Source: Auricularia sp. M13 (taxonomy: Eukaryota > Basidiomycota > Agaricomycetes > Auriculariales > Auriculariaceae). Taken from it: DNA of 64,000 nucleotides. The notes under the pieces are model-generated. The model was given only the letters and a program-made list of their open reading frames with translations, ran no database searches and was not told the origin of the DNA. This document shows, one piece after another, positions 17,090 to 37,031 of this stretch (the stretch's first letter is position 1; each line of letters opens with the position of its first letter). A program made the translations under genes and the position numbers. The stretch is taken from positions 7,440,001 through 7,504,000 of the forward strand of contig CM073193.1 in the NCBI GenBank assembly GCA_037042915.1, given 5' to 3'.

Positions 17090-20000
17090 TCATCCCTTGG
17101 ACTTGTGCGAGCCCGTCCGGGGCACGGGGTGCGCGGCCTCCTCCGTCTTGCGCTGCCACTGGTCGATGAGCTTCGACACGCCCGAGTACGGCCTGTCCGG
17201 CGTGGGTGAGGCGATCGGCTGCGCGACGCCGCCATTCTGCTCGCGAGGCGGCGTGATGGATTTCAGCGGGGGTCCGGGGCGCCGCGACAGCGACGACGGC
17301 TTGACCGGGATCGGCGACACCAGGGTCACTGGCGATGAGGGGACAGGCGTACTTGATTTGCCAAATAGTACCGAGGTAGACGATTGTCGCCCGTGTCCAG
17401 GAGCGAATGAAGCCGCCGTTGCGCTCGTCGGCGTCCTAAGAGCACCCGTGTTGGACGTCTTGACCGCACCCAAACCCGTGGTAATCGGCTTTAGGTTGAT
17501 TCCTGTATTGCCAGTCGTGATGGGCTTCACGCTCGAGCTGCCAGTAGTCGTCGTGCGCAACGCCGTACCCGTGATGATATTGCGGACACCAGCTCCAGCA
17601 CCACCGCCAGTGCCGGTCGCGTTAGTCCTCGCGCCCGTAATATTGGTCGCGGGCCGAGGCGTCGATGAACCACTGGGTTTGGGTGTATGGCTCGGTTTTG
17701 GCGTTCCCGTGTTCATCACTGGGGTTGCAGTCCGCGCAGCTCCACCAATATATCCTCCACCGAAGTTATAAGTAGGCTTCGTCGGCGACGGTGGTGCCTT
17801 ACTCGGCGATGAAGGCGGCGCAGTATTCTTACGAGCGGGTTGTTGCCGGCCATGGAATGCGCTGCTCGTCGAAGTATACGCGCTCGAGCTAGTAGATGAG
17901 CTGGCAGGCGAGATGCGTCCGGTGCTAACACGCCGCTGCTGAGGAACAGATAAGCCGGGCGACGTCCTCCCAGTGGGCGCTGCAGACGGGGCAGTGAGTC
18001 CAGGCAGCGCGACCTGTCCCGCCCCGCCGCCGCCAGGACTCCAGCGCGGCGCGGCAGGGAGCGCGGAGTAACCAGCGCTTCGAACTTTTCGACCATATCC
18101 GAGATACTGCCCCGCCGTGAAGAACGCCCTTTGTTCGCATCCTGCGGAGGGGCAGCTAGGTTCTGAGGAGTGGGAGTAGAAGCAGAGCCGGCATACGGCG
18201 TTTGGTGCGAAAGCGCCGTGAATGTCGTTGGCTGCTGAGTGGGCGGTGACAATGTCGACGAGCCCGAGCCTCCTCCCGAGCCGTACAGGAACATACTCTG
18301 CGGACGAGCTTTCGCCGGGCTTGGAGGCTGGGGCACCGGTGTCGGTCGCAAGACAGGTGATGGTCCCGGGCTCCTCTTTTGGCCAGCGCCCACACCCATT
18401 TGCCGCGAGGGTGGACGCTCCAGCCGATCGGGTGTCTTCGCAGGTGCAGAATCTGTACTCCACAAGTCCACCAAATCGTGCACCGAGCTTGTCCGTCCCT
18501 TGGGCCGAATCTTGCTCTTCCTTTGTTTGGGCTCGAGGACACTACGACGCTCGGGGATGGCTTCCTCTGGGCCTTTCTCCTCATCACTGCTCGAGGAGTT
18601 GCCTTGTTGCTGGTGCGAAGAAGCCGAAGGCGGATGCCTGTCTTCGACAGGGCTCCAATTGTCAGTGAGCCCAAGATCACGGGGAGACGTTTTGGCTGGT
18701 GCAGGCGCAGCGGACGGCGAAACGCGCAGTGGCTCCGAGGGCAAGGGTCTCGAGCCGAGATAGCTATCACCATTAGATGGTTGCGGGTGTCTGAACGCCG
18801 AGCGGGTCTCTTCGCGAAACACGCTCGCCCTCGCAAACGCGCTCTGCGTCTCCTCCTTGATAGGTTCCGGGCTGTCCGAACGGGCGCTCGGGCGCGGAGG
18901 CAGCGGCGGCTTGGGCGACGGGCTCCTCCGCACAGCAGCACCAGACTTGGCAGGACTGGAAGGCAGCGGCCGCGGGCCCATGGCACGTGGGCCATTGAGA
19001 GACGATCGTGCGACATGTGCTGGCGGCGGCTGCGGTTCGTCGAAATCTCCGGTGAGCCAGTCCTGCTGGGGCAGCTTGCCCGGCGATGCCTTACTTTCCT
19101 CGCGCCGATGCAGGCCCTCGTGCTGGTCGCCGGTTAACCAGTCTGTAGGCTGTTCCCGTTCCTTCCTCGGCGGCTTCGGCTGGGTGATGGCGGACGAAGT
19201 GGCCAGAACAGGACTCTTGATCGCTACGCTGCTCCTGTGGCGCCGCAAACTCGGCCGCGCGCCATCGCGAGGAGAAGAAGGTGCACCAACACCATGACCA
19301 GTAGGTAGCATAGCAGGTTTCGGAGGCAGCGTAGGCGGAGAAGGATCCTTCATAGCGACCCCCGTGACCTGCTGACTTCTGGCGCCGCGCAGCGGTGGTG
19401 TGGGGGCAAGATCACGCCCGTACAGGTGCGCGCCGAGGTTGGGGGCCGGAGGCGACGCGACAGGTGGGGAGAATGCACGATCTAGCGCTTCGAGACTTGG
19501 GAAACGTTCCTCCGCAGACAGCTCCACATCAGTAGGTCTACCCGATACCGCAGGTGTCGCTTTACGCGTATCCTGCAACGGCGCCGAGGGTGCACGTAGT
19601 GCGCTTGGATAATACGAAGGCGTCGTTAAGGTACCAGGGCGAGGCTGGGGCGTCGTAGACGTTGCAGGTGGAGGAGGCGATATGCTCCCATAAACTGACG
19701 GCGGGATGGGCGGCGAGGACACAGATGGGAGGACATGTGAGTTGCGGATGCTCGGTTTGAACGAGTCGCCAAATCCTGTTGTCGGGCTGACGACAGCGGG
19801 TGACTTGGCCTCAACGCGCTTGACATTCAGCGCGGCCATATCCCAAGGAGAGTCATCAGCCTTTTCCTTGGCCTTAACGGCCTCCCAAGCGCGGTCTTCT
19901 TGGGACTGCACTTCTGGTCGGCCGCGACGCATGGGCGCAATTGCATCCAGCACTTGTTGACGTGCAGCAGCAGCACCCGCGCCAGAAGACGATGACGCCG

Positions 20001-21456
20001 CCGCCGCGGGGTTGCGGACAAGAATCCCATCCAGTGAGGATTTGGGGGGTGCCGCAGGAATCGTAGACACTGGTCCACGGTTCTAGACAAATATAGGTTC
20101 AGCGTCCTACATGAAATGTTGGGGACATAAATATCATACGTAGGTAAACTGCGATCGTGTGCCGCGCATTGCATGCACCCGATCGAGAAGGTCAAACACA
20201 GAGGGCCGATGTGCACCGTATTCCTGCAGCATCGAACCTGCAGCGAGTTAGAAAGACGCGATACTTTCTTTAAAAAAAGACACACTGATGAGTTGGTTCA
20301 TTTGGGTGGAATAGACGGGATATGGTGGCGTTGTGTACTGGACGTTCAGGATAGCCAGTGGGCCATGCTCTTCAAACGGTGTCGTGTAATAGCAGAGCTT
20401 ATACAAGAGCACGCCGAGCGCCCAGACGTCTGGAATATCATAGCAGTCAACAAAACCGCCAGTATGAAATGCCAAGGATGAAAGCGGCGCACCAGACTTC
20501 TCGTCAATTGGTCGTCGCAGGTTCGGGTCAATCATTTCTGGTGCGCGGTACTGAAGTGTCGTATGCCGATCCAAGTCGGCGCCGAGAGCTTGAATCTCCT
20601 GTAGAGTGGAGGGCGGGCGCTGGGCGACTGGAGTGGCGGAGCCGAAGTCACACAGCTTATATTTCGTAGATGATGCCTGCAAAATGTTCTCGACCTCAAG
20701 TATGGGTTAGCTATGGGCGGCGTGTACGGGTACATGCTGAAAGGCACCTTGAGGTCTCGATGCAGGAGCGCGGGACGGAGGTTGTGCATGAAGGCGAGCG
20801 CTTCGCATACGTCAACGAATATCTGCAGGATCTCTTGCTCAGTCAAGCGCTCTCGCAGCCTCCGATTCATCATGTCGATGATGCCGCCGCCAGGGCAGAA
20901 TTCCATAAGAATGAAGACTTCGTAGGCGCTGGGTCCAGTGGGTGTCTTTGACCAGGCTGCGTCAATGAGGTGGACGATGTTGGGATGGCCGCGTAGCAGC
21001 CGCTATCACATCCCAATGAGCCAATAGCATGAATGGAACGTGGTTGGCTTACCATGATATCGACCTCCTTGCGGACTTCGTTAAGCATGGGCTCGTTGGC
21101 CACGCGGATGTGCTTGAGGACATGCTGCGTAGTGCCTCCCACAGGCTTGTCTGATCGCACGAGATACACGTGCGCAAAGCCGCCTGCCAGCATGTGCCGC
21201 CATTGTTGCGATTAAATAGGTGCGGAGAAAGCAAGGTCACCAGCGCGGGGTCGTAGTCGTCAACGGTAACGGCCAGACAGCGAGCGCAACACAATTCAAA
21301 ACAACGCAGGACAGTCAGTCAGCGATGGCAAAAAATATGAGAATAATAAGCGACGCTACCTTGGCTCAGGTGCCGTTCCACGCGCACGTTGTGTTCGCCG
21401 ACCTGAATGGCCTGTCCGAACGCCAGTAGCTCCTTGCCAGCACCTGCATGGTACAT
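17090..21456 (-). CDS. Ark1/Prk1-type (NAK family) protein kinase with long Pro/Ser-rich tail
   Basis: In yeasts this family phosphorylates endocytic actin-patch proteins and drives coat disassembly. The likely start is ATG 21454-21456 (MYHAGAGKELLAFGQAIQVG). It is joined by an intron to the Gly-rich loop GGFAHVYLVRSDK. Catalytic features follow: HVLKHIRV (Lys), MEFCPGGGIIDMMNRR, LLHRDLK, KLCDFGSATPV and DVWALGVLLYKLCYYTTPFE. The C lobe ends around HRPSVFDLLDRVHAMRGT at 20150-20230. A tail of roughly 900 residues, very rich in Pro, Ser and Thr, carries three related short motifs (near 18447-18487, 18073-18115 and 17157-17197) and ends GSHKSKG at 17090. At least one intron near 17.9-18.1 kb switches frame in the tail. 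The tail is longer than in yeast Ark1. Identity is firm; the substrates are inferred from the family. Confidence 0.9.
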
Positions 21457-27133: not shown

Positions 27134-27773
27134 GGTGTTGCAGTCGTGGGTCTCGGGGGGTCGATTGGACGCCCCGGCGCGAGCTCTTGTTAAGTAGTGC
27201 GCACATTGGCTGGGCGCTCAACGCTTCGACTGACGACAGCAGACTATTCCAGGCCCCGAGGATGTCCGCACGACGAGCTTTTGACGCCCCACAACCCTCT
27301 TGACGTTTTCGGACGCTGTCATGGCCGAGACAAGAGCATCAATCGTCTACATTGTCTCCGACCCATGGCACATGCGACGCATGACTCCTCGCATGTGCCC
27401 CACACAGCCTGAATGACCTCAAACTCGTATGCAGGTACCGACATGACGAGGACTTTGGGCTATGAACTGTCTATCTCTGGCGATTTGAAGACTTGAAGTC
27501 GCTTAGCTCGTTTTCGAACCCTGGAATCATCCTGACGACTGGTTACTTCGGGAGCAATTGACCGTGGTTTCTTTGGCGGAGGCATGTAGCGAAAGGGCCC
27601 TCCCATCGTGGATCCTTCGCCACAGGATGGTTTGTTGGGAGCTGTCCTATGGCGGTACGGTTCCATCGTTCGCATCGCAGAGTCACAGCGTGTTTGAACT
27701 GCCGCCGAGTGCCTACTAAAGGCAGCATCCCAAATCCTTGCACCAGATTTTCAGCTTCTACCTATTCTCTCTA
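27134..27773. promoter_or_regulatory. shared intergenic promoter between monooxygenase and prenyltransferase
   Basis: This 640 bp separates two divergent start codons, so both promoters must lie here. I saw no exact ATCWGATAA site. A short basic minus-strand frame (27460-27675, with PPPKKPRS and RVRKRAKRLQ) exists but is probably not a gene. Confidence 0.5.
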
Positions 27774-29190
27774 ATGCCTGGTCTCACGTACGCAAATTTC
27801 CACCTGACTCATTGCAATGCCGGAGCTGACCCGATTCGTAGTCTTATTCCCTCGCAATCGAGCAGGGCGGATCTCGACCCTGCGTATGCTCAGCTCGACA
27901 CAAATTCTATATTCTGGTACAACACATTCCGCGGTATGCTCGAGAAGCTTCTCCGGAAGTCCTGCTACAGCGAGCAGAGGCGAGACGATATACTATCGTT
28001 CTTCGCGTCGCATATGGTACCGTACCTCGGGCCCGCCCCGAGGCTCTCTGCACGACGGTGGAGATCCTTCATGACGCAGGACCACACTCCCGCAGAACCA
28101 TCACTAGCCTGGAGTGCTTCTCGCCCTGAGCCACGCACTCGACTCGCCATCGACATAATACCGAACGATATGACTGATCGACCCGCCGCTACTGCTCAAC
28201 GTGCCATAGACTTTGCTGCGGCGCTGAGAGCATACGCCGACGGCCATAACACAGTCCAGATAACGTCTCTCGACCTGGAATTGTTCTACCACATCGCCGA
28301 GCAGCTATTCGTCCCGACGTTGGACACGTCGATCGAGGACCTGATTGCCGACGTCCCCAGCGGCCCTTCGTTGACGTTCTTTGGCGTTGACATCGAGGAG
28401 ACGAGCTCGAAGGTCAAGGCCTACTTCATCCCCGCATTGACCGCCCTGGCGCTTGATCAACATCCTGTACGAGTCGTCTCCGACACCTTCGTCTCTCTCG
28501 GTGACTTCCCGGCGTGGGCCGCCATACTCGGCTACCTTGCCACGTTACCACTGGATGAGATGCCTGTGCCCTTCATCCTCTCCGTCGATTGCGTTCCTCG
28601 TGCCGTAGCGCGTTACAAGACTTACTTCCGGTGCAAAGTCAGCGGGCCAGACGAGTTAATCAACCACATGTCTCTGGGAGGCCAGATTCCCTTGCCCCAG
28701 GTTTCATTGCTGGCGTTCTTTCCCTTTGGAGGCTGCTCGCTCCGAGTCTAGATAACCTGGATGGCCAGTCCTTTACGCTGAGACTGGCCTCTGCCTTTAC
28801 TACGACTTTAAGGAGTCCTCTGAGTACCCGACTGTCAAGGTTTACCTTCCAGCTCAGGTCAGTCTTCGAAGGATACTGTACACGATATAATACTGATCCT
28901 CCCATAGAACTGGTCAACGAATGACCTGAAGGTCTCTCTTGCAATCGCCTCATGGCTGGAGGAGTTCGGGCATCCAGGGTCGGCAAAGTCTTACGTCTCT
29001 TTCGCATCTGATCTCTGGTAAGCATCCACAATGCCGTTAGCATTGAACCAGTGTATTCACCTTGCCTAGTGATCGCCCACTCGCCACGACATCGGGGTTC
29101 CATACCTACGTCGGTATCGCCCCTTCGAAAACTGGTGGCTGCGAAGCGACCACGTATTACAACCTCAACATGTTCCGTCAATCATCGTAG
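27774..29190 (+). CDS. DMATS-family aromatic prenyltransferase, apparently frameshifted
   Basis: This family transfers a dimethylallyl group from DMAPP to an indole or other aromatic (dimethylallyltryptophan synthase fold). The first ATG in frame is 27774-27776. Family features are FFASHMVPYLGPAP, SFMTQDHTPAEPSLAWSA (with the substrate-indole Glu position), RLAIDIIPND, KAYFIPALTALAL and RYKTYFR. Later come YPTVKVYLPAQ, an intron, NWSTNDLKVSLAIASWLEEF, an intron, and TSGFHTYVGIAPS, ending NMFRQSS with a TAG at 29188-29190. Between 28670 and 28800 the family-like reading moves through all three frames: MSLGG in the first, GVLSLWRLLAPSLDN in the second, GLCLYYDFKESSEYP in the third. I found no intron that explains it. 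Two 1-nt losses, in the organism or in the assembly, fit best. A pseudogene is possible. Confidence 0.85.
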
Positions 29191-29715: not shown

Positions 29716-30474
29716 CTATGTTAACATGGCGTCTGGCTGGTCGAGAGCATCGTCCAGAGCATCCATCTCGTCTTCATCGTCATCGTCATCGCCATCGTCG
29801 ACCTCTTCGATCCCATTCACGCCGCTGGAGGGCATAGCAGGATACACAGACAGGTCCATCGCCACATCGCCGGGACCCAGCCCGCGGAGTCCAGGGATGG
29901 GCGAGCCTGAGGGCAGTCGATATGCAGAAGACCCGTCGTGACGAAGCTGCTGTTGATTGTCTCCATTGCCGTCGCCGTCGCCCTCGCCGTCGCCCTCGTC
30001 CTCTGCGGGAACCTCGACGCGCGCCTTCCAGTCGAATTTCTCGCGCAGCATCTGGACGGCTCGTTGCGCACGCTGCACGCGGGCATCGTGCTCAGCGCGA
30101 ACGTTGTCAATGTTGGCGGTGCCCAACACGTTCTGAACGCGGCGCACGACCTCGCTCTCGCTCTCGAGCACCTGGAACGTCTGCTGGGTACGCAGCAGCC
30201 CGCTAAGCTCGCTATCCAGCGCAGCTTCAGACACTGGCTGAGCTGGATGAAGGACGAGATTGTGCAGCGACTGCGGAATGCCACGTGAGAGCGACGAGGA
30301 GAGCGAGAGAATAACATTGTATTTTGCGAGTACTTCAGGCCAAGTCGGCGTGTACACGTCCGGCCGATCAATGACCATGAGCAGCGATTGGATGGCATCC
30401 AGCAGCTGCGTCGTCTTGAACCGTACCCCGTCCAGAGCCGTAGTTGGCAGCGCCGTTGTAGGCGGTCCGCTCAT
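29716..30474 (-). CDS. MED8: Mediator complex subunit 8
   Basis: An intronless frame of 252 residues from ATG 30472-30474. Med8 sits in the Mediator head module, bridging activators and RNA polymerase II in the nucleus. The N-terminal helices fit the family (VRFKTTQLLDAIQSLLMVID, followed by TWPEVLAKYNVILSLSSSLS). Next come SLHNLVLHPAQPVSEAALDS, SELSGLLRTQQTFQVLESES and a long charged helix ending MLREKFDWKARVEV. The tail is acidic and low-complexity (GEGDGDGNGD, then DDGDDDDDEDEMDALDDALD). The length suits fungal Med8 proteins. The call rests on the order of conserved helices rather than a catalytic motif. It lies in line with the minus-strand gene starting at 33454. Confidence 0.75.
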   Translation of the reverse strand: MSGPPTTALPTTALDGVRFKTTQLLDAIQSLLMVIDRPDVYTPTWPEVLAKYNVILSLSSSLSRGIPQSLHNLVLHPAQPVSEAALDSELSGLLRTQQTFQVLESESEVVRRVQNVLGTANIDNVRAEHDARVQRAQRAVQMLREKFDWKARVEVPAEDEGDGEGDGDGNGDNQQQLRHDGSSAYRLPSGSPIPGLRGLGPGDVAMDLSVYPAMPSSGVNGIEEVDDGDDDDDEDEMDALDDALDQPDAMLT

Positions 30475-30652
30475 GGTCGTGGAAAGAAGGCAACGTCCGA
30501 TTCCGCGCTCCGCCGGTTTCTCGGGTCCCAGCCAGACGTCACCAGAGTGGGAGTTCTCATGTGAAAAGGTAATGCAGATTGTGCAAATCCGTGGTCGTAT
30601 ATAAATTGTACATCAATTCTGAACTCATTGCATGGTAAGACACCTCAACACA

Positions 30653-33454
30653 TCAGATGAGCGCGGCGGTGCGTAGAACCTGGGCGGTCTTGTTGCGTCC
30701 CGCACTGAGTGCCTCACGCGACATATCTGCATACCGACTCAGAGTGCGCACGGCCTCATCGCGCGCATTGCCCTGAGGATAGGCCGAGTGCGGTCCGAAA
30801 GTGCGGTCCAAAAAGCTGTCCAGCACCGAGTTCTCCATGAGAACAGCTGCCGCCTCCTCATGTTGCGCTGCCACCGTCGAGGCCCGAGCGAGCATCTTGT
30901 TCATGGCGAAGAGCGCGTCGCGCGCGACAGACGCTTGCTGCTTGGCGCCATTCCAACCGCGAGCGCCTTCAGCAACCAGAACCCCGAGCTTGATGCCGAC
31001 TTGCTGCAGCATATGCGTGCCCAACACCGCTACGTTGATACTGGTCTCGGCGTGGGTCCTGTCGGGCGTGGCAGGCATAACGCGGTGCAAGATACGCACG
31101 CGCGTATCGCCGCTCGCGGGTGAAGTGTACGTGATGCGCGCCTGGAATGGCACAGAGTCGTCCTTCCACACCTTGCGCTTCTCGCTGGACCCAACGTCAG
31201 GAGCGAACGCAAACGATACGCTGGTTGCATCCGCCGCCTGCGCGCGTGTGTACGTCAAGGTATTTCCGGAGCTCGACACCGTCGTTCCAGGACGAGCGTC
31301 GCTCGTGAAGCGCCACCCGGGCGGGACGTGCAACGTTACGGCGATGTCCTTTGCAACGATGCGTTTCTGAGTCGCAGTGCGTAGTTCCCGCCGCAGCTCG
31401 TCGGGGTTGACGACGTTGACGAGCCCGCCGCTCGACTTTGCCGCTGAGAAGAGGACATCAAGGCATACACCCTCGCCGGCAATACCAATGACGTTGATCT
31501 TCGCCCCCATGCCCGCCGCCAGCTCGCCTGCGCGCCTGTAGAACGAACGCATGTGCTCAGGACTCGTGTCATTGTATCGGTTGGTCGAGCCGATACCCGA
31601 GTTGGACGCTCCGTCAGTACAGAGGAAGATTTCGGCAGGCGAGCTAGTTCTCTTGCGGTAATTCTGCACGAGCCCGAGTGCGAGCGCAGCGGCCGTTCCG
31701 AGAGCCGTGGAGGCTTTCGTGTACAGACCATCCGTCCGACTCTTCAGGTCCTCAAAGGAATTGGCCACGTTTTGCCAGCCCTCTGGCGCAAGTTCCTCCC
31801 CACGCAGTATACCGCCTGCCAGAGACTTGATGCTATCCCCTCTGATCTCGAGGTGTTTATGCACGCCACCGAAGAAACACTCGACGTCGGTGGCGAAAGC
31901 CAGGATCGCAACGCGCCGATTGGGGAAGTGCTTGTTCAGGCGCTCGAGATGCGCATGCATGGCGTCCTGCATGCACTGCAAGCGCGAGATGTGGGTCTCG
32001 TTATATAGCTTGTTGTGTGGGGCGAGGCCCTGCTGCTGCTTCATCTGGTTCCATAACCCTTGCATCTGGTTGACTCGCTGCGTCGATCCCACTGAATTGC
32101 CTGTTAGACGTGAACACAGATGCGAATGATCACTTACTAGAACCCGAGACGTCAATACAGAAAACGGTCAAGCCGTCGTCCTCCCAGTTGACGTAGTTGA
32201 TCCCTTCACCATGCGATTTGGCCTGCTCGGGCGCAGCACCGATGCCCTTGACAAGGACGTACTCTTCGACAGCACGATGGGCCTCGAGGGTCTGGCTAGT
32301 GGTGTTCTTGGTGTTGCAAAAGATGCACTCGGGTGCGGAACCAAGGATTGCGCCGCACGACTGGCAGCTGGGCGGTGCGGCGCTGAGCTCCCTGATCTCG
32401 AGCAACCCGAAGTTTTCGCGGGCGAGAGAGCCGAGATTGAGAAAGACGACATTGGTGTTTGCCTTGGCTACCTTGCGAGTCTTCTTCTTAGGTCCTGGAG
32501 CGGGTTGCTTGCTGGGCGGCGTAGTCATTGCCGAGTCCGAGTACGATGGCGGAGGCTCGTCGACAACGACACTCTTGCGCTTGAAGAGCGAGCCAATGGA
32601 TCCCAAAATAGACGAACGGCGGGAAACTCTGTTCGAAGACGTGCTGGGCGTCGGGCGATGGCGAGAGCTGCTTGGAGCCGTCTTCGGTGCGTCGGCCGCC
32701 TGTTTCGATATGCCAGGAATGTAGAGCATTTTCCGATACGTATCCTCGATGGTAGGATCCTACAGGGAATGACTCAACACCAATGCGCATTTCGAGCGAA
32801 CATAAATTACGCACGTAAGTCTCCACGAAACAGTTCGTAGTGAACATGACGGTCAGCGAGCTCTTGCCGACGCCGCCAGCGCCGAGCACGGCCACAGTGT
32901 ATAGCACGCCCGTGCGTGGCATGAGCTTGGCCAGCCTGATGAAGGCTGCTTCCACATTCTGAGCTGTCTTCGCGGAGGTGCGGAGGACTGGAACGCCGTT
33001 CAGTCGGCCCCAAGCAAGGACCTGGTCGAATGGGACCACCTCGTGGGAAATCAGATCAGACTTGTTGGCGGCTAGGACACATGGCACAGAGTCGGCCTGG
33101 CGAATACGACAGCAAAACTATAGTGAGTTGTATCAGTCAGACGAACTCCTGAGCCAACAGGTTTAGACATGCCTGGTAGATGATTTGTGCCTCCTCCCAT
33201 GACCCCAAGTCAGTCACTGAGTAGACAATGAGGAATCCTTTGGCGGAGCGGGTGGCTTGTTCGCGCGTCGCTGAATACTCCTCCTGGCCAGCGGTGTCGA
33301 TGATATCGAGCAAGCACGCATCCGGGTTGTTGAAGCTAGTCTCGACCTTGGCCGCGCTCTGAACTTGGGCAGTGTAGTCAGACTCGTCTATCTCCTCGTA
33401 GTCGACCTTGGGGTCGAGGGGGGTTGTGAGGATGAAATTGCTGCCGAAGTCCAT
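30653..33454 (-). CDS. circularly permuted Ras protein with zinc ribbon and vWA domain (cpRas1-like)
   Basis: A Ras-like GTPase whose motifs are in permuted order. It starts [13 protein letters not shown] (ATG 33452-33454) and carries G3 first ([20 protein letters not shown]). G4 (VLAANKSD) and G5 (LRTSAK) follow, then the P-loop G1 ([18 protein letters not shown]). Last is switch I/G2 ([12 protein letters not shown], across an intron near 32760). A Ser/Pro-rich basic linker leads to a CX2C...CX2C zinc ribbon ([17 protein letters not shown]), [18 protein letters not shown] and a vWA domain ([34 protein letters not shown]). A beta-rich and helical end follows, ending VLRTAALI at 30653. The vWA metal site starts DVSGS, a DxSxS motif. 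This layout matches the Dictyostelium protein called circularly permuted Ras 1. An acceptor-like TAG before the first Met leaves room for one more 5' exon. Cellular role unknown. Confidence 0.9.
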
Positions 33455-35904: not shown

Positions 35905-37031
35905 ATGAGTGCCCCCAAGCCTACAGTACCCAGGGCGAGCGTGGCCGACGACGACGACGTGGATGATCTGGATGGCGCGTGTATCGTTCCTGATCTCTGC
36001 ATGCGCTCATCCCAGTGCGTGCCACAGACGTTCTTGACGAGTTCTCAAAGCCTGCCCCAGCCTCCAAGCCCAAAGCACCGCAGCCCGCAGCATCGTCTTC
36101 GGCGCTGCCCACGCCGCCGCCAGTCGATGAAGAGCTCGACGACGACTTCGTGCGCGATCTGGCTGCCGGCATGGAGAACCTCATGCGCGACCTGGCCGGC
36201 GACGACAAGGAAGCGCAGGAGGCCATCGAGTCCAGCCGTGCAGAATGGGAGCAAGCCCTCAAAGGCCTGCAAGACGCTGCAGCCACAGCTGGACCTTCAG
36301 CGACAGCCTCTGGTTCTGCACCGTCTGCGGCGACAGACGCCAGCTTCCAGGCGTCGCTACGTGCAACCCTTGACAAGCTCAAGAACAGCGAAGACACTCT
36401 CAAGGTTCCTTCCAATCCCTGGATTTATTGACGAGCGTTAATCATCTTTAACGCAGGCGGATGAGGCGGATGGCGCCTCGGCAGACTCGTTTGCGCAGCT
36501 ACAAGACCTTCTTGCCTCGTTAGCAGGAGATGCAGGTGATGGCGATGGCGACGAGGACGGCCAACTGTCTGGGGTACTCCAGGGTCTCATGCAGTCTCTA
36601 ATGAGCAAGGACATATTATACGAACCCATGAAAGATTTGGGTGCAAAAGTGCGTCACCATCTGCCGCGAGCTCATCAAGTCTCATTGCAGAACAATTCAG
36701 TACCCCGAATATATCGAACAAAATAAAGCTTCCCTGAACGCGGAGGAGCTGAAGCGCTATCAGGAGCAGAGCGCTCTGGTGGGGCGCATTGTTGCCATAT
36801 TTGAGACACCAGGATACTCGGACGACGATTCCGTGCGGTCCGCTCAAGTCTTGACCTTGATGAACGAGGTGCGTATCTACTGCCTGCAAGACCGATGTGC
36901 AGACCTGACCGCGTCTGCAGATGCAAGCCCTCGGTTCTCCCCCACAGGAAATCATGGGTGACATGCCCCCGGGCTTTGAAGCAGGGCCAGACGGCTTGCC
37001 CAAGATGCCGGATAACTGCACCATCTCCTGA
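35905..37031 (+). CDS. PEX19: peroxin 19, farnesylated import receptor for peroxisomal membrane proteins
   Basis: Pex19 binds newly made peroxisomal membrane proteins in the cytosol and docks on Pex3. The start is ATG 35905-35907 (MSAPKPTVPRASVADDDDVD). The N-terminal Pex3-binding region reads DVLDEFSKPAP. Helices follow: DDDFVRDLAAGMENLMRDLA, EWEQALKGLQDAA, FQASLRATLDKLKNSEDTL, FAQLQDLLASLAGD, then LYEPMKDLGAKYPEYI and RYQEQSALVGRIVAIFE. The end, MPPGFEAGPDGLPKMPDNC, is followed by TIS and a TGA at 37029-37031, so the last four residues (CTIS) form a CaaX box for farnesylation. There are three or four short introns. Keeping frame across the first one seems to need a GC donor near 35965, which is unusual. 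Identity is firm. Confidence 0.95.

Follow-up and report, generated by a model that had tools for sequence, protein, structure and literature searches.

The gene at positions 30653 to 33454 on the minus strand of the window, the whole stretch of 64,000 nucleotides analysed here, places a basidiomycete-like fungus among the holders of the cpRAS-VWA family described by Elias and Novotny (2008; PMC2430557). Its predicted 881-residue product combines the motif order G3-G4-G5-G1-G2, the TIE signature within G2 (DPTIEDTY), a VWA domain in the C-terminal half and four cysteines upstream of it. Taken together, these features suggest a protein with an ordinary Ras fold that would act as a non-lipidated GTP/GDP switch, be placed in the cell by its C-terminal module and exert control through a flexible tether, a reading to which we assign a probability of roughly 0.65. 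The architecture has been known since 2008; what goes beyond the 2008 text is its occurrence in a fungus, outside the holders named there, and the presence of a second, diverged gene in the same genome.

Gene structure and the rotated Ras domain

The start codon lies at 33454 and the stop codon ends at 30653, and four exons splice into a product with zero internal stops:

33173..33454, minus strand: exon 1, residues 1-94, with the N-terminal extension, strand 3, G3 DTAGQEE (switch II) and strand 4
33118..33172, minus strand: intron 1, 55 nt, GC-AG (CAG|GCATGT), phase 0
32815..33117, minus strand: exon 2, residues 95-195, a single open frame with G4 NKSD, G5 TSAK, helix 5, a short joint, G1 GAGGVGKS and helix 1
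32760..32814, minus strand: intron 2, 55 nt, GT-AG, phase 0
32138..32759, minus strand: exon 3, residues 196-402, with G2 DPTIEDTY (switch I), the low-complexity linker, the zinc ribbon CQSC...CIFC (327-343) and the first VWA strand with DVSGS
32092..32137, minus strand: intron 3, 46 nt, GT-AG, phase 1
30653..32091, minus strand: exon 4, with the remainder of the VWA domain, a putative beta-rich region, a putative C-terminal helical region and the stop codon

The beta-rich and helical regions of exon 4 come from a low-confidence model only: AlphaFold runs on exon 4 and exon 2 alone, with no relatives in the input, gave pLDDT values of 42.7 and 47.5, respectively. For intron 1, a GT-AG reading disrupts the frame and was rejected in favour of GC-AG, alternative GT donors having been dismissed by eye only. 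With the GC-AG model the alignment to HRAS crosses the exon 1/2 junction without a gap, and the corresponding intron of the second gene, itself set by eye, is GT-AG at the identical place and phase. Intron 3 has two in-frame acceptor AGs, each leaving the frame open, of which the first yields DVSGSSNSVG and the second DVSGSM; the second is preferred because DVSGSM fits DxSxSM, the usual VWA metal-site signature.

Every motif quoted in the initial annotation is found in the quoted sequence and order, with DTAGQEE at residue 53, NKSD at 112, TSAK at 141, GAGGVGKS at 173 and DPTIEDTY at 196. Its boundaries for the gene, given there with no strand, are likewise recovered, as is its description of a protein that starts near switch II and ends its GTPase at switch I. 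G3 lies one 55-nt intron upstream of exon 2 and G2 one 55-nt intron downstream, while G4, G5 and G1 (residues 112-180) fall within this exon; since these three share one uninterrupted exon, their order is independent of splicing. At the DNA level this also upholds the earlier claim of one gene, rather than two divided ahead of GAGGVGKS. That two adjacent genes, or an error of assembly or gene modelling, mimic a permuted Ras is extremely improbable: the model is predicted from DNA and needs one GC-AG intron, but apart from the shared exon there is a second locus on another contig with the same order, and an identical architecture is described in the published account of the family (PMC2430557).

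The domain is recognized as Ras both in its native order and when rotated. Against the whole protein the Pfam Ras profile matches in two stretches (E=1.4e-35, 122.7 bits); taken apart, residues 1-164 cover profile positions 28-160 with 93.7 bits and residues 160-227 cover positions 2-45 with 38.8 bits. Rearrangement into the usual order merges these into one stretch spanning positions 2-159, and the score rises from 122.7 to 136.6 bits. In a comparable manner, the rotated domain aligns with residues 4-160 of HRAS in the PDB (E=7.8e-41) at 142.8 bits, against 126.2 unrotated, with gaps of three residues close to the artificial join and of one residue further on. Among its 367 PDB matches (E<=1e-20), each of the best 60 carries the name HRas, KRas, NRas or plain RAS. 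Both switch regions are near-identical to those of HRAS in the printed alignment, and the effector loop differs from the human HRAS sequence YDPTIEDSYRK at one residue of eleven. All five G motifs are intact, and Gln57, the equivalent of HRAS Gln61, is present, which suggests selection for them. From these matches we infer that the rotated chain forms an ordinary Ras G domain, in which a short joint would connect helix 5 to strand 1. The protein has the effector loop and all of the G motifs in common with canonical Ras (HRAS, KRAS, NRAS), but departs from it in the rotated order, with G1 fourth, in the absence of a CaaX box and in the fusion to further domains.

The first 44 residues precede the HRAS match and are poorly conserved, with 10 of the 44 (23%) identical in the second gene. 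As the first Pfam Ras stretch reached back to residue 27 and there covered profile positions also matched by the second, a duplicated strand 2 ahead of G3, left over from a tandem duplication, was considered. It was rejected because the intact sequence (93.7 bits) is the highest of ten by 0.3 bits only and so does not score above chance, removal of the first 44 residues giving 91.7 bits and eight shuffles of them 91.4-93.4 bits.

The linker, zinc ribbon and VWA half

The G domain is followed by a linker of about 90 residues, between the end of G2 at residue 205 and the start of a conserved pre-ribbon block at residue 298. Residues 207-293 consist to 60% of Ser, Thr, Pro, Lys and Arg, against 31% for the whole protein, and the linker is identical to the second gene at 25 of 90 aligned positions (28%), whereas the part spanning G3-G5 reaches 38% and that with the ribbon 41%. 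This stretch (residues 207-293) is probably a flexible spacer. Several short motifs occur within it (residues 239-292; window 32469-32630, minus strand). Residues 239-257 are basic and somewhat amphipathic, a feature to which we attach low weight, residues 265-268 read PPSY, a pattern able to bind WW domains, and residues 285-292 read PKKKTRKV, which we take, again with low weight, to resemble a nuclear localisation signal. The last of these and the amphipathic basic stretch may point to different cell locations.

Beyond the linker lie a four-cysteine ribbon, formed by CQSC at 327 and CIFC at 340 (C327, C330, C340 and C343), and a VWA domain with DVSGS at residue 398. The latter is detected as PF13519 VWA_2 over residues 393-478 (E=1.7e-8 for the whole protein), with a further sub-threshold VWA match over residues 517-568. 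The MIDAS set, which we judge by eye to be complete, presumably comprises D398, S400, S402, the Thr of STALG (531) and the Asp of CTDG (562). The last cysteine of the protein is residue 612 and the chain ends in VLRTAALI; as its C-terminus has no cysteine, there is no CaaX or prenylation box. The initial annotation had proposed a CX2C...CX2C ribbon and a vWA domain with DVSGS on the same chain as the GTPase, as well as the lack of a lipid box, and in these respects it was correct.

Its further proposal, a tethering of switch I to the vWA part such that the nucleotide state could gate ligand or metal binding there, is not supported. Direct mechanical coupling of this kind, with the nucleotide state altering what the VWA domain binds, would draw on switch I being the final element of the G domain ahead of the VWA half, and on the second gene, in which changes to the switch motifs coincide with changes to two VWA metal ligands, a coupling-compatible pattern seen in a single case. 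However, the Ser/Pro/Lys-rich linker described above intervenes, and its length, composition and low conservation relative to the flanking parts weaken direct gating because a flexible spacer would separate switch I from the VWA part. We consider direct gating distinctly improbable and favour control through the flexible tether.

A plausible but weak relation may link the VWA half to Sec23 and Sec24. These COPII subunits are built in the order zinc ribbon, VWA-type trunk, beta-rich region and helices, with a gelsolin domain as a further part. The window protein resembles them in having a zinc ribbon followed by a VWA-type trunk and probably a beta-rich and helical region, together with a weak profile similarity of the trunk; it differs from them in its intact MIDAS signature, in the absence of a Pfam trunk match and in carrying a GTPase on the same chain. 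The genome has four loci of the Sec23/Sec24 type (G000:C2, L026-L029), three of which are Sec24-like by eye, and these genes, assembled roughly by eye, were compared with a profile of the two cpRAS-VWA sequences. Over the full length the score with these rough genes was 36.7, against 14.4-18.6 for five column shuffles and 13.9 for a reversed control. For the ribbon and trunk, hhalign gave 36.6 (E=2e-4, probability 47%), against a mean of 15.7 and a maximum of 32.9 for 40 column shuffles and 17.4 for the reversed control, with the ribbon out of register in that the first cysteine pair was aligned to the second Sec24 pair. The beta-rich and helical part scored 16.5, below the 18.7 reached by the best shuffle, the aligned segment being the expected one. 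Among the Pfam results, PF08033 (Sec23_BS) appears in the corresponding region of the second gene at E=0.1 and is unlisted for the window protein; PF04811 (the trunk) is likewise unlisted for the window protein or its pieces, and no gelsolin match is listed for the window protein. No Sec23 or Sec24 chains were recovered from the PDB, either with the C-terminal half, which gave one unrelated match (E=0.7), or with the two-sequence profile, which gave nine (E 0.13-0.5).

A second, diverged copy and the proposed mode of action

When the protein was searched against the organism's own genome (52.1 Mb, 14 contigs), 15 matches at E<=0.01 were obtained, of which four are its own exons, eight are overlaps with ordinary Ras-family matches and three belong to one further locus. 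This locus, G000:C4:4044451-4047340, lies on another contig and, arranged as in the window gene, contains the N-terminal, ribbon and VWA parts (E=3.3e-22, 7.5e-8 and 1.1e-48, respectively). Its model, with exons at L025 1052-1342, 1403-1690, 1742-2489 and 2539-3941, yields an open frame of 909 amino acids. In the chosen splice model the three introns agree with those of the window gene in place and phase (0, 0, 1); intron 1 was placed by visual inspection, and introns 2 and 3 are one of 26 open combinations. As this combination was picked by similarity of its junctions to those of the window gene, the agreement is partly one of choice.

The two proteins share the start MxFGSxFIL. The paralog retains an intact G1 (GAARVGKT) and all four ribbon cysteines, but its G3 reads LDPSTSQ and its G2 PDVVAPDQGSYSRK, so that both switches are changed, and its G4, altered in part, reads NFSD. 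In its VWA domain DNALG stands in place of STALG and CSNN in place of CTDG, altering two metal ligands. Because the paralog has lost its switch motifs, active switching is evidently not needed in every copy, and the sequence suggests that it is probably a non-switching partner or a subfunctionalised copy. This degraded sister gene provides a natural comparison for what the protein needs, and is the most interesting addition of this analysis.

The persistence of the paralog as a 909-residue open frame despite its broken G3 and G2, together with the published C-terminal-half relatives that have no cpRAS domain (described in PMC2430557), could alternatively indicate that the G domain serves as a scaffold that binds nucleotide but has no working cycle, the VWA half being the functional part. 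The window gene keeps all five G motifs and Gln57, which speaks against such a scaffold, and we regard it as unlikely. The switch reading is retained for the window protein. Under it, the rotated G domain would cycle between GTP and GDP, as predicted from its motifs, and its HRAS-like effector loop may dock Ras-type effectors or GAPs. The lipid tail being absent, positioning would fall to the ribbon-VWA half, possibly in a Sec23/Sec24-like manner, and to the basic linker. The GTP state would then control the choice of the partner that assembles with the VWA module, acting by way of the flexible tether and not through direct mechanical gating. A more speculative extension, which we consider highly improbable, is that the intact and the damaged copy form a heterodimer like that of Sec23 and Sec24, whose assembly would be controlled by the lipid-free, self-carried Ras-type switch while the dead copy serves as a structural or regulatory partner. 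If true, the pair would be a one-chain counterpart of the GTPase-plus-coat logic that is split between Sar1 and Sec23.

Family relationships and genomic context

The cpRAS-VWA family was defined by the order G3-G4-G5-G1-G2, a RAS-family G2 with TIE, a poorly conserved N-terminus (40-66 residues) and linker, a possible four-cysteine finger ahead of the VWA/Sec23-24-trunk domain and a length of about 840-970 residues (PMC2430557). The window protein is like DdiCPRas1 and its relatives in the motif order, TIE, the four-cysteine finger, the VWA half, the length and the variability of N-terminus and linker; the likeness to the Dictyostelium protein suggested in the initial annotation is well founded, as the text of the 2008 paper describes the same order, a possible four-cysteine finger and a VWA domain (PMC2430557). 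It differs from the family as defined then in its fungal holder and in a genome that carries a second, motif-degraded copy. The holders named in the text of that paper, all metazoans or protists, are Branchiostoma, Strongylocentrotus, Amphimedon, Monosiga, Capsaspora, Dictyostelium, Acanthamoeba and Naegleria (PMC2430557), with fungi absent from among them, and no report of a fungal cpRAS was found in the literature searched. Unlike the Naegleria protein, the one described here has no RING finger that we could find. With DdiCPRas2 it shares a circularly permuted RAS domain, but that protein has 3933 amino acids and macroglobulin-like domains in place of the VWA domain, as given in the same source (PMC2430557). 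The YRG/YlqF proteins are likewise circularly permuted P-loop GTPases, but their order is G4-G5-G1-G2-G3, whereas here G3 comes first. Some mushroom proteins are named "circularly permutated Ras protein 1" in public databases.

The defining paper inferred that cpRAS arose early in eukaryotes and was lost independently at least eight times, and the permutation breaks the turn between strands 2 and 3, once argued to harm folding (PMC2430557). The occurrence of two copies in a fungus is relevant to this count of losses, and the family shows that such a permutation persists. Later mentions, in the parts of those papers covered, consist of the cpRAS name or the 2008 paper in tables, a reference list and one sentence on patchily distributed families (PMC3505798, PMC8296547, PMC11764893, PMC5125639), and no report on cpRAS-VWA function was found in the literature searched. 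The present gene makes a fungal host available for functional study of cpRAS-VWA, and the closeness of its effector loop to that of human Ras makes effector-binding tests simple. Scans with exon 4 against viral contigs gave three pattern matches, and scans with the exon-4 alignment of both copies against prokaryote genomes gave 69, none of which was confirmed in either set.

Several other genes in the window were noted. Immediately downstream of the cpRAS gene, an open frame (29719-30612, minus strand) has a sub-threshold match to Med8 (E=0.00066), and positions 35994-36431 on the plus strand match Pex19, a peroxisomal membrane protein import factor (E=1.1e-11). A tryptophan dimethylallyltransferase is encoded at 27720-28748 on the plus strand (Trp_DMAT, E=1.8e-47); indole prenyltransferases of this type are frequent in secondary-metabolite clusters. 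The short introns are in keeping with a fungal genome, as are nearby genes such as those for Trp_DMAT and Pex19. A 788-codon open frame at 17719-20082 on the minus strand has no Pfam match at E<=1e-5. In the genome as a whole, DUF6533, a domain typical of mushroom-forming basidiomycetes, has 49 matches (E<=0.001), as against its presence in 0 of 14 control genomes.
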